Below are positions 44,734 through 57,682 of a DNA stretch of 64,000 bases, in pieces; the stretch's first letter is position 1; every line of letters begins with the position of its first letter. Source of the DNA: Hydrogenophaga sp. NFH-34. Its GTDB lineage: Bacteria > Pseudomonadota > Gammaproteobacteria > Burkholderiales > Burkholderiaceae_C. A program made the position numbers and the translations under genes. The notes below the pieces were generated by a model. That model saw only the letters and a list, made by a program, of their open reading frames with translations, did no database searches and had not been told where the DNA came from. Location of the stretch: assembly GCF_021401345.1 (NCBI RefSeq), contig NZ_JACBGE010000015.1, forward strand, positions 1 to 64,000, in the 5' to 3' direction.

Positions 44734-46041
44734 TCAGGCCGACCTGGTGGCCTTGATGGACAGGCTTTCCAGGTACTTCTTCGGGTTGGCCGGATCGAAG
44801 ACCTTGCCGTCGAAGAATTTCTCCACGCCGCGCGAGGTGGACGTGGGGATGTCCTTGGCGGCCACGCCCAGCTCCCTGGCGGCTTCGCGCCAGAGGTCTT
44901 CGCGGTTGACCTTGGCGATCAGGGCCTGGGTGTCCAGGTTGGTCGGCAGGTAGCCCCAGCGCTGGTTTTCCGTGAGGAACCACAGGTCGTGGCTCTGGAA
45001 CGGGTAGCTGGCGTGGTCTTTCCAGAAGCGCATCTGGAACTTGCTGTTCATCTCCACGCGGCCGGTGCCGTAGTCGAAGTCGCCCTTGACGCGGTCGATC
45101 ACGTCGGCCACCGGGGCGTTGATCCAGCGTCGGCGCGAACAGATCTCGGCCACCTCGGCGCGGTTGGCCGGGTCTTCGCACCACATCTGCGCTTCCATCA
45201 CCGCCTTGAGCAGCGCTTTGGTGGCGTTGGGGTTGGCCTGCACGTAGTCGGCGCGCATGGCAAACGCCTTCTCCGGGTGGTTCATCCAGAGTTCGCTGGT
45301 GGTGATGGCGGTGTAGCCGATCTTCTGGTTGATGAGCTGCCGGTTCCAGGGCTCGCAGACGCAGAAGGTGTCCATGCTGCCAACCTTCATGTTGGCCACC
45401 ATCTGCGCGGGCGGCACGACGATGGTGGAGATGTCCTTGTTCGGGTCCACGCCACCGGCGGCCATCCAGTAACGGATCCACATGTCGTGCGTGCCGCCGG
45501 GGAAGGTCATGGCGGCGTTGACCGGCTTGCCGGTCTTCACGCGCTTGGCGAGCAGGGCCTTGGCGAAGACCTTGGTGTCCAGGCCGACTTTGAGGTCCTT
45601 GTACTCGTCTCCTACCGAGATGCACTGGCCACCCAGGTTCAGGCGCGCCAGAATGGTCATCGGTACCGGCACGTTGTTGGCCGTGACCGCACCGGTGCTG
45701 ATGAGGTAGGGCATGGGCGTGAGGATGTGGGCGCCATCGATGCCACCTTTGCCCGAGCCCAGCACCAGGTTGTCGCGCGTGGTGCCCCAAGAGGACTGCT
45801 TGAGCACCTCCACCTCGGTCATGCCGTGCTTCTTGAAGAAGCCTTTTTCGTCGGCGACGAACAGCGGGGCCGCGTCGGTCAGGGCGATGAAGCCCAGCTT
45901 GGCGGTCTTGGTTTCCAGCGCGGTGGACGCACGGGCGGGCGCTATGAAGGCGTTGCCCAGCAGGGCGGCGCCTCCCAATGCCGAGGCTTTCTGGATGACG
46001 GCCCGGCGCGAGAAAGACGGGGTGTTCAAAGGCTGCTTCAT
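44734..46041 (-). CDS. nrtA: Nitrate-binding periplasmic protein
   Basis: 435 residues. The N-terminus has a Tat-like signal (FSRRAVIQKASALGGAALL, then APARAS). The body is the NrtA fold (KLGFIALTDAAPLFVADEKGFFKKHGM, PAQMVANMKVGSMDTFCVCEPWN). It captures nitrate and possibly nitrite for NrtBD. AGGAG lies eight bases before the ATG. It is the first gene after the NasR-type attenuator leader (46084-46181), so it heads the regulated operon. Confidence 0.94.
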   Translation of the reverse strand: MKQPLNTPSFSRRAVIQKASALGGAALLGNAFIAPARASTALETKTAKLGFIALTDAAPLFVADEKGFFKKHGMTEVEVLKQSSWGTTRDNLVLGSGKGGIDGAHILTPMPYLISTGAVTANNVPVPMTILARLNLGGQCISVGDEYKDLKVGLDTKVFAKALLAKRVKTGKPVNAAMTFPGGTHDMWIRYWMAAGGVDPNKDISTIVVPPAQMVANMKVGSMDTFCVCEPWNRQLINQKIGYTAITTSELWMNHPEKAFAMRADYVQANPNATKALLKAVMEAQMWCEDPANRAEVAEICSRRRWINAPVADVIDRVKGDFDYGTGRVEMNSKFQMRFWKDHASYPFQSHDLWFLTENQRWGYLPTNLDTQALIAKVNREDLWREAARELGVAAKDIPTSTSRGVEKFFDGKVFDPANPKKYLESLSIKATRSA

Positions 46042-46083
46042 GGTCGACTCCTGCGAGATGAACAAAATCGGAAGCCCAAAACG

Positions 46084-46140
46084 ACAACGGCGCCCATCGC
46101 ATCCCGGGCTGGAAGCCCGGAGAGCAATGGACGCCGTTGT
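46084..46140 (-). terminator. Attenuator terminator hairpin in the nrtA leader
   Basis: Read on the minus strand: ACAACGGCG, a CCAT/ATGG inner pair, then CCGGGCT-loop-AGCCCGG, closing with CGCCGTTGT and followed by CGTTTT. The outer stem is nine base pairs and the inner one seven. It ends 42 bases before the nrtA ATG. Its 5' arm is shared with hairpin P2 of the ANTAR motif, so the two structures exclude each other. Confidence 0.85.
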
Positions 46141-46181
46141 CCGTGTCTGGGAAGACTGATGAGTACCTGGCCGTCGTTGGC
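46129..46181 (-). promoter_or_regulatory. Two-hairpin ANTAR (NasR) target in the nrtA leader RNA
   Basis: P1 is GCC-AACGAC-GGC (46181 to 46170, with outer CC/GG pairs after a 2x2 mismatch). P2 is GGAC-AACGGC-GTCC (46142 to 46129). Both loops are six bases with A at position 1 and G at position 4, the hallmark of RNA bound by ANTAR proteins. P2 uses the 5' arm of the terminator at 46084-46140, so NasR binding would prevent termination. The nasR gene lies directly upstream, which makes the call strong. Confidence 0.8.
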
Positions 46182-46198
46182 TGGGTTGTGGCTCATCT

Positions 46199-46214
46199 AG
46201 CAGCTTGTGTGCCA
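46199..46214 (-). promoter_or_regulatory. Candidate sigma-54 promoter of the nrtA operon
   Basis: On the minus strand the bases TGGCACACAAGCTGCT fit TGGCACRNNNNTTGCW with a single mismatch, and GG and GC are ten bases apart. Transcription would begin near 46187, just before hairpin P1. Sigma-54/NtrC control is known for the Klebsiella nas operon. Confidence 0.6.
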
Positions 46215-46346
46215 GCCGATGGCTGTGCAGCGCTTCAGGCGATCAAATTTTGGAAAGATATTTGTTTTTGCAGGAGAAAATCCCGGAGGAGGCGTGTTTC
46301 TGCGGTCTGCCTGCCTGCGTCCTGCTGCGCCGTCGGGCGCTCAAAC

Positions 46347-46353
46347 TGGTGCA
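46347..46353. promoter_or_regulatory. Possible NtrC half-site
   Basis: TGGTGCA matches one arm of the NtrC dyad (TGCACC...GGTGCA) and lies about 140 bases upstream of the sigma-54-like promoter, a normal enhancer distance. The other arm is poorly conserved (GCGCTC side). A further TGCAC half-site occurs near 46371. Confidence 0.3.
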
Positions 46354-46401
46354 GGCGCACGCAGTTTTTGTGCATGGCAGCACCCGTGTGAGGGCCGGGC
46401 T

Positions 46402-47691
46402 TCAGCGGGGACGGTCGGAGAGCACGTCGGCCATGGCGAGCACCGCGTCGGCCACGTCCACCAGGCGGCGGTTCTGGTTCATCGCCATCTGGCGCAGGGT
46501 CTTGTGCGCGTCTTCTTCGCTCAGGTGGCGGTGGGCCATGAGCAGGCCCTTGGCGCGTTCGATGAGCTTGCGCTCGTTCAGGCTGGCGCGCACGGTGTCG
46601 AGCTCGTCGCTCATGTGCTGGAGGCGGCGCGACTGGTCCTGCACCAGTTCGAGGATGGAGCGGTCCACCTGGGGGCCGTAGGCCTGCACCGCGCCCCCCG
46701 CTGCCGCCACGCTGGGGGGCAACGCGAGCAGGGGGTCTTCGCGGCTGTCGAAGAAGTCTGCCCGGTCCGGCAGGGCGTCGCGTTGCTCTGCCGCAACCTG
46801 TTCGAGCGTCGCCAGCTCGCGGCGCGTGGTGTCCAGCCGCTGCGTGCACAGCGTCAGCAGCTCGGCGGCCAGCGCGTCTTCAACCGCTTTCATCGCGTCG
46901 ATGCGGGCGGTGCAGGCGTCGAACCAGGTCTGGCTCAGGTTTACGTCGAGGGCGCTGCCTGCCGGCATCGTGCCCAGGATGCGGCGCAGGCGCTCCAGCC
47001 CGGCCAGCACCTCGGGGCGCTGTGAGCGCTGCCATTCGGCCCGCAGGGTTTCGCTGGCGAAGTCGGTGAAGACCTGGAGGCAGCGTTCCTGCGATTCGAC
47101 CAGGTCCAGCAGGTGGTGCTGCTCGTCCGGATCGGCCAGGCCGGAGGCGAACAGGCCCGAGCCCGTGGCCCGTTCCTGGCCGGCGAATTCCTTGCCCTGC
47201 ATGAAGTTGAACAGCGCCACCAGGCGGCGGGAGATGTCCGGGTCGGGTGCGCTGTCGGCGGCTTCGAACACCACGGCCAGCAGGCCGTTGATCAGGCGCA
47301 CGAAGGCGGCGGTGGTCTGCTGTGCGCTCAGCGCGCCGGCCGCGACACGCCCGCGCAGGCGGGGCAGGGCGTCCAGCCCCTGGAGCACGTAGGCGATGCG
47401 GCTGAACAGGCGGGCGCCGTTGGCGGTCTGCAGCGACTGGGTGTCAAGCTGGTCGAAGCAGGCCTGCACCTCGGCCTGCAACTGCTCGCACTGGGTGATC
47501 TGCCCAGTGCGCTCGGTCTGCCAGCGTCTGCCCTGGGAGCCGACATACAGATTGGACAGGCCCCGTTCGCGCTGCAGCGCGTGCACCAGCCGCCCGGTCG
47601 CGTTGACCAGGGCGCTCGTCAGCGCCAGTTGCTGCAGGCCGGCGATTTCGCATCGCCGCGCCTCGATGAGGAAAGACAGGCCCGATTTCAT
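46402..47691 (-). CDS. nasR: Nitrate-sensing antiterminator NasR (NIT-ANTAR)
   Basis: 429 residues. A NIT domain fills about 25-300 (LVHALQRERGLSNLYVGSQGRR, with many helices) and an ANTAR RNA-binding domain ends the protein (about 365-425: LNERKLIERAKGLLMAHRHLSEEDAHKTLRQMAMNQNRR split in two). In Klebsiella, nitrate or nitrite binding to NasR lets the ANTAR domain bind a leader hairpin and stop premature termination of the nas operon. The 360-base gap downstream carries exactly such a leader. It is transcribed in the same direction as nrtA. Confidence 0.92.
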   Translation of the reverse strand: MKSGLSFLIEARRCEIAGLQQLALTSALVNATGRLVHALQRERGLSNLYVGSQGRRWQTERTGQITQCEQLQAEVQACFDQLDTQSLQTANGARLFSRIAYVLQGLDALPRLRGRVAAGALSAQQTTAAFVRLINGLLAVVFEAADSAPDPDISRRLVALFNFMQGKEFAGQERATGSGLFASGLADPDEQHHLLDLVESQERCLQVFTDFASETLRAEWQRSQRPEVLAGLERLRRILGTMPAGSALDVNLSQTWFDACTARIDAMKAVEDALAAELLTLCTQRLDTTRRELATLEQVAAEQRDALPDRADFFDSREDPLLALPPSVAAAGGAVQAYGPQVDRSILELVQDQSRRLQHMSDELDTVRASLNERKLIERAKGLLMAHRHLSEEDAHKTLRQMAMNQNRRLVDVADAVLAMADVLSDRPR

Positions 47692-57597: not shown

Positions 57598-57682
57598 GCC
57601 GACGTGGTGAAATTGGTAGACACGCTATCTTGAGGGGGTAGTGGCGAAAGCTGTGCGAGTTCGAGTCTCGCCGTCGGCACCA
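57598..57682 (+). tRNA. tRNA-Leu (anticodon GAG)
   Basis: 85 bases. The acceptor arm GCCGACG (57598-57604) pairs with CGTCGGC (57672-57678), followed by discriminator A and encoded CCA. The D-loop has AATTGGTAGA, the anticodon arm CTATC-TTGAGGG-GGTAG places GAG at 57632-57634, there is a long variable arm as in class II tRNAs, and the T-loop is TTCGAGT. It reads CUC and CUU codons. Confidence 0.97.

Follow-up and report, generated by a model that had tools for sequence, protein, structure and literature searches.

The gap between nasR and nrtA in a 64,000-nucleotide stretch of Hydrogenophaga sp. NFH-34 DNA (the window) holds, with little room for doubt, a NasR-type attenuation switch acting before nrtA. 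Its parts and their conservation are observed directly; its transcription would depend on sigma-54, and NasR binding, nitrate dependence and read-through are expected from the Klebsiella system. An earlier note on this DNA had read the region as a complete attenuation switch, and our analyses support that reading at the level of sequence: the parts it named are present and recur in relatives, a Klebsiella pneumoniae nasR–nasF-type locus has the same gene order and leader, and the first hairpin covaries. Judged by its sequence, the leader is an ordinary case of NasR/nasF attenuation, a known mechanism. The comparison reaches further. The Rfam family narK RNA (RF03032) is very likely not a class of its own but a sigma-54 promoter fused to the P1–P2 ANTAR leader of nitrate operons, with P11 (RF00625) the terminated leader of the same class and a three-hexaloop sub-type that would test the hand-off of an ANTAR dimer.

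All features of the leader lie on the minus strand, between the nasR stop at 46402 and the nrtA ATG at 46041. The first hairpin, P1 (46165–46186), reads ACC-CA-GCC[AACGAC]GGC-CA-GGT, with GCC[AACGAC]GGC as its core (46181–46170), and has only 3 + 3 bp flanking a 2 × 2 mismatch (two mismatched positions). The antiterminator hairpin P2 (46129–46142) is GGAC[AACGGC]GTCC. Both hexaloops, AACGAC and AACGGC, have A at position 1 and G at position 4, as had been claimed, and both hairpins have stems of at least 3 bp. The intrinsic terminator (46078–46141) has a 5′ arm that starts at 46141 and holds the P2 bases, a 3′ arm reaching 46083 and a GTTTT tail to 46078; the sharing of bases between the second hairpin (46142–46129) and the 5′ arm of the long terminator, as stated earlier, is thus borne out. 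The minimum free energy of the leader is −66.7 kcal/mol, compared with −39.0 (SD 3.7) in 200 shuffles (z −7.5). With P2 enforced, the energy is −53.1 as against −66.7 with the terminator, so that the terminator is the default fold and P2 would need help to form.

A strict scan of the window, with rules that were fixed only once the leader was already known (at least 3 bp in P1, at least 4 bp in P2 and, before a TTTT, pairing that takes in 10 nt of P2), returned one place on the minus strand and none on the plus strand. A simple terminator scan called no terminator in 45900–46500; it requires 5 T in 8, and the tail, which reads GTTTTGGG, was missed for that reason, its T tract being weak and short (TTTT followed by GGG). 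The only match above the Rfam gathering score in the window is a tRNA gene at 57598–57679. The matches to mir-8791 and mir-5881 were rejected as sub-threshold matches to a long hairpin. An outer pairing, GATGAG with CTCATC around P1, was also set aside: the predicted transcription start falls inside it, and it is probably absent from the RNA. Between P1 and P2 lies a mini-hairpin, GTCT-TCCC-AGAC (46145–46156). This linker hairpin, in the form GTCT-NCCC-AGAC, recurs in many Hydrogenophaga-type leaders, where some compensating changes can be seen by eye, and linkers taken from 73 distinct relatives give better folds than their letter-shuffled versions.

Upstream of P1 we identified a sigma-54-type −24/−12 site, TGGCACACAAGCTGCT (46199–46214). 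Its −24 GG and −12 GC are 10 nt apart, and it agrees with 8 of the 8 scored flanking positions (TGGCAC/TTGC-like context) of the sigma-54 consensus. A simple consensus scan found no sigma-70-type promoter in 45900–46500, and a sigma-54 gene is present in the genome (match to the sigma-54 DNA-binding domain). From the site we infer that transcription of the leader is sigma-54-dependent. The predicted start, counted by hand from the −12 C at 46200, is at about 46188, directly 5′ of P1, so that P1 would be in the RNA and its outermost pairs near the 5′ terminus. The earlier note had named a start downstream of P1 as counting against its own reading, and this is not what the sequence predicts. A similar site was found in each of the 80 relatives described below. 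In 61 of them, a site agreeing at 7 or 8 of the 8 positions lies wholly within 50 nt 5′ of the P1 loop, and in the remaining 19 the −12 GC is 46–49 nt before that loop. Across a wider set of leaders, this distance is mostly 20–30 nt where a sigma-54-type site was found. We claim no NtrC enhancer site in the window, where the best candidate agrees at 7 of 12 positions and falls below both the mean of the relatives and that of the shuffles; in the relatives themselves (57 loci), NtrC-like sites exceed shuffles, with means of 9.1 and 7.4 of 12.

The NIT-ANTAR gene nasR (46402–47691, minus strand; probable start at 47691) is immediately upstream, as the earlier note had it: its product combines a NIT domain (Pfam, 192 bits) and an ANTAR domain (70.1 bits) in one protein and matches the NasR structure PDB 4akk (E 4e-47). 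The substrate-binding protein of a nitrate ABC transporter is encoded by nrtA (44734–46041, minus strand; Pfam NMT1_2, 346.6 bits), the first gene of the operon, whose Shine–Dalgarno sequence AGGAG at 46052–46048 lies outside the leader hairpins. Next come the permease and ATPase genes of a nitrate ABC transporter, and then nirB (NCBIfam matches to ntrB, ntrCD and nirB). The whole genome has one ANTAR match, the NIT-ANTAR gene adjoining the leader. A genome scan with R2, a leader model that includes the window in its training and has no promoter columns, placed the window leader first at 65.3 bits and the next place at 20.4 bits. As the genome has one ANTAR match and one strong leader, the nasR product and the leader very probably form a regulator–target pair. 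The 20.4-bit place (C4:84820–84852), scored with a model tuned to NasR-type leaders, reads by eye as coding sequence, and we rejected it as a second target.

Combined, these parts suggest the following course of events. Sigma-54 RNA polymerase would start at about 46188. Without nitrate, the leader would fold into the long terminator (46141–46083) and transcription would halt ahead of nrtA. Once nitrate is present, the NIT domain of NasR would release the ANTAR domain; NasR could then bind P1 and P2, the P2 hairpin would keep the bases of the 5′ arm of the terminator, and the polymerase would pass on into nrtA and the genes for the permease, the ATPase and NirB.

Of 458 NasR relatives, the best 80 were used to assess conservation; they come from Hydrogenophaga, Variovorax, Polaromonas and others and are close relatives. 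The layout of sigma-54-type site, P1, P2 and terminator is common to all 80: P1 and P2 stand ahead of a T tract in each, the P2 stem has at least 4 bp in each, and the P1 stem reaches 3 bp or more in 78 and 4 bp or more in 71. In 80/80, P2 bases form part of a terminator arm of at least 7 bp with a T tail, compared with 4.6% of 800 shuffled 3′ sides. The leader detector fired on none of 400 shuffled regions; it demands A..G loops, and the loop letters are thus partly selected. For a less selected sample we searched 200 genomes of the family, 52 of which had a NasR hit, and examined 50 loci. The full pattern was seen in 34, P1 being doubtful in one of them (G474), and was missing from 16; 9 of these 16 still have at least one A1/G4 hexaloop and 7 have none, one of the 7 being at a contig end. 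Three leaders (L040, L042 and L050), judged by eye, carry between the promoter and P1 an additional hairpin whose tetraloop is GNRA-like, and three others (L193, L215 and L218) have a hexaloop AATGAA or AACGAA in its place, as if one had turned into the other.

The Rfam output contained no ANTAR-target family, and the ANTAR covariance scan proposed in the earlier note was therefore done with models built here. Selecting leaders with a P1–P2 loop distance of 36–44 nt and less than 85% identity from the 80 kept relatives gave 38, from which L181, L200 and L201 were dropped; for model R3 we also dropped L199, leaving 34 leaders downstream of nasR elsewhere, with the window left out. With this held-out model the window leader scores 61.6 bits (E 5.3e-20, E-values being rough), and the next-best place in the 64 kb 11.4 bits. 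In the R3 alignment the structure pairs in 92.8% of cells, and the covariation score is 0.373, compared with 0.133 (SD 0.017) in shuffles and at most 0.134 with slid partners. Pairs with two-sided changes number 5 and are not in excess over shuffles (4.5). All two-sided changes are in P1; P2 hardly varies, so covariation is uninformative on it. In the wider set, consisting of 89 distinct leaders (114 candidates less 23 without the pattern and 2 duplicates), the P1 position −3/+3 pairs in 85, against 45.5 (SD 4.0) in shuffles.

The closest parallel is the nasR locus of K. pneumoniae, compared here in its plasmid copy and related to the K. oxytoca system that has been studied by experiment. It carries TGGCATCCCGTTTGCAT, P1 gaacc[AATGGC]ggttc, P2 ggat[AAAGGC]gtcc and a terminator, followed by an NrtA-type gene. 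The window thus resembles Klebsiella nasR–nasF in having nasR ahead of an NrtA-type gene, a sigma-54-type site, the two A1/G4 hexaloop hairpins and a terminator over P2; it differs in the loops themselves (AACGAC/AACGGC rather than AATGGC/AAAGGC), in its weaker P1, longer terminator stem and shorter T tail, and in the NasR residue predicted to stack on G4, which is His instead of the Trp in the 4akk sequence. The nasR–nasF-type leaders of Erwinia and Pantoea agree with Klebsiella in layout, and R2 finds the Klebsiella, Erwinia and Pantoea leaders at 21.9, 22.0 and 23.9 bits (E 2.7e-5, 2.6e-5 and 5.2e-6 in 768 kb). In an Azospirillum record, compared for gene order only, the nitrate regulatory gene has no NrtA-type gene behind it. 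The layout is also that of the ANTAR dual-hairpin motif of EutV, AmiR and NasR (Ramesh 2012, PMC3369931; papers are cited by PMC number from excerpts), in which two short A1/G4 hexaloop hairpins occur and the second overlaps a terminator. There is no difference in kind, the window leader adding only the linker mini-hairpin found in many leaders of its lineage. According to the excerpted survey, the motif is found in Burkholderia and ahead of nitrate transporters, and Table S2 of that paper may include close relatives (PMC3369931).

The match of RF03032 to the window scores 25.4 bits and extends over the promoter, P1 and P2; as this is below the gathering score of 43.2, the window is not filed under the family. 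The consensus consists of GGCACA...UUGCU, a hairpin with loop AACGGC, and CGAC-AAAGAC-GUCG, and these parts line up with the promoter, P1 and P2 of the window, the structure line of the model marking the first hairpin only. Among 399 genomes of the order, 67 have an RF03032 match at E ≤ 0.01 (only 3 above the gathering score) and 186 have ANTAR genes. An ANTAR gene is present in 65 of the 67 genomes with a match versus 121 of the 332 without (Fisher P 1.9e-22, computed on related genomes that are not independent), and many genomes with ANTAR genes have no match. The matches give 72 places, of which we analysed the 64 with a retrieved locus. In 42 of the 64, an ANTAR domain has its end no more than 1.5 kb upstream, on the same strand; in 50, one lies anywhere in the locus (up to about 6 kb on each side, less at contig ends).

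Model R2, run over 768 kb at E ≤ 0.1, overlaps 55 of the 64 places to within 80 nt, and 54 of these matches score at least 15 bits; one of the 55, L079, is on the same contig as L199 of the R2 training set. Of the 9 places that R2 missed, 5 show both hexaloops by eye (L066, L069, L025, L089 and L123), 1 is ambiguous and 3 show none. Downstream reading frames, taken from 59 places (L109, L113, L121 and L122 were left out and L074 had no frame), belong to the Pfam families NMT1-like (36), major facilitator (9), pyridine nucleotide-disulphide oxidoreductase, NirB-like (4) and molybdopterin oxidoreductase (1), the rest being other or unmatched. At L109, a bare sigma-54-type site precedes a flagellar basal-body rod gene and no leader is present, a case that reveals what the promoter section of the model responds to. 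The matches at L113 and L122 look like chance and were rejected as ANTAR leaders, as was the ambiguous match at L121. Weinberg 2017 reportedly describes the narK motif; our literature search found no statement joining RF03032 to ANTAR proteins, though Weinberg 2017 or Marogi 2024 may already make one. That leaders of this kind are linked to ANTAR proteins has itself already been published: in the excerpts, NasT-type hairpins are predicted in a Bradyrhizobium narK leader (PMC6759348) and NasT binds a nasA leader (PMC3795266).

A second catalogued family, the Pseudomonas small RNA P11 (RF00625), leads to the same type of leader. RF00625 scores 17.3 bits on the window (gathering score 70) and 36.3, 32.2 and 25.7 bits on the Pantoea, Erwinia and Klebsiella leaders, all below gathering; RF03032 is absent from the Rfam matches of these three at E ≤ 0.5. 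RF00625 matches 14 of 369 genomes of the class at E ≤ 0.01, 1 of them above the cut-off. The P11 locus L228 (126.2 bits) has the layout of the window, with a sigma-54-type site, P1 [AACGTG], P2 [AAAGGC] and a terminator, and a NirB reading frame begins about 60 nt beyond the leader. R2 also matches it, at 18.6 bits, and RF03032 weakly, at 21.4 bits. P11 is the small RNA discussed in connection with learned avoidance in C. elegans, and the abstract of Marogi 2024 is said to describe it as acting with nitrate and sensor proteins. According to excerpts, P11 has been tied to a nitrogen assimilation operon (PMC12080996), and inherited avoidance in C. elegans is disputed (PMC11942167).

The strongest competing reading, that the leader acts at translation or, once terminated, as a free small RNA in trans, besides or instead of attenuation, draws on P11, which covers the same leader class, was named as a small RNA and is described, in the excerpt, as a regulator of a nitrogen assimilation operon (PMC12080996). 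Yet none of the hairpins includes the ribosome site of nrtA at 46052–46048, and all of the best 80 named relatives retain the terminator and its overlap with P2; we consider this reading unlikely. That the leader is a plain terminator of nasR, the hexaloops being a by-product of a strong stem, would fit a long hairpin that is very stable alone and stands behind nasR, but not the conservation and covariation of P1, which is outside the terminator. The sigma-54-type site conserved ahead of the hairpins, after nasR, moreover implies a new transcript; where such a site was found, its −12 GC is mostly 20–30 nt from the P1 loop. A plain terminator seems highly improbable. The regulator could conceivably be a NasS–NasT pair and not NasR, given that 35 of the 42 ANTAR genes just upstream of narK RNA matches are in open frames shorter than 300 amino acids, a NasT-like size (hand count). 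In this genome, however, the single ANTAR match is the NIT-ANTAR gene adjoining the leader, and we give a NasS–NasT pair almost no credence.

NasR E175–R176, the predicted nitrate pocket (PMC7496416, excerpt), fall in a GQER stretch common to the window NasR and 4akk, the numbering offset being counted by hand. An excerpt on the EutV–RNA structure argues that the dimer engages the hexaloops singly, G4 being stacked on Tyr164, and that P1 may pass it on to P2 (PMC8934654). We aligned the corresponding stretch in 71 rows, namely the window and the 70 of the 80 kept relatives in which it was found. Of the residues listed as contacting RNA in EutV (PMC8934654), the equivalents of R142, K149, E160 and M172 are kept in 71/71 rows, including the window NasR, whose equivalent of R175 is Asn. 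At the G4-stacking position, equivalent to Tyr164, the window NasR and 59 of the 71 rows in total have His and 12 have Tyr, while Klebsiella NasR (4akk sequence) has Trp.

The number of hexaloops also varies. Counting hairpins with A1, A2 and G4 and a stem of at least 4 bp, we found 0, 1, 2 and 3 in 6, 5, 36 and 17 of the 64 RF03032 places, and 1, 2 and 3 in 8, 68 and 4 of the best 80 named NasR leaders (the first hexaloop of L182 looks doubtful); none of 1,280 letter shuffles reached two. The 17 places with three are L068, L070, L074, L076, L083, L091, L092, L097, L100, L101, L103, L106, L111, L114, L116, L119 and L123, and in nine of them (L068, L070, L076, L083, L097, L101, L103, L114 and L116) a sigma-54-type site scoring at least 6 precedes the first hexaloop. 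All 17 are candidates for leaders that may carry three hexaloops in one RNA, and in the nine the putative promoter is ahead of the first.

The window leader represents a clean betaproteobacterial case of NasR attenuation, and, with a single ANTAR regulator encoded in the genome, it lends itself to testing. If our reading of the two families is true, one known mechanism would lie behind both catalogued RNAs, RF03032 and RF00625, and matches to either could be read as ANTAR targets under sigma-54 control. Leaders with three hexaloops, together with the Tyr/Trp/His differences at the residue that stacks on G4, serve as natural tests of the hand-off model proposed for EutV (PMC8934654, excerpt).
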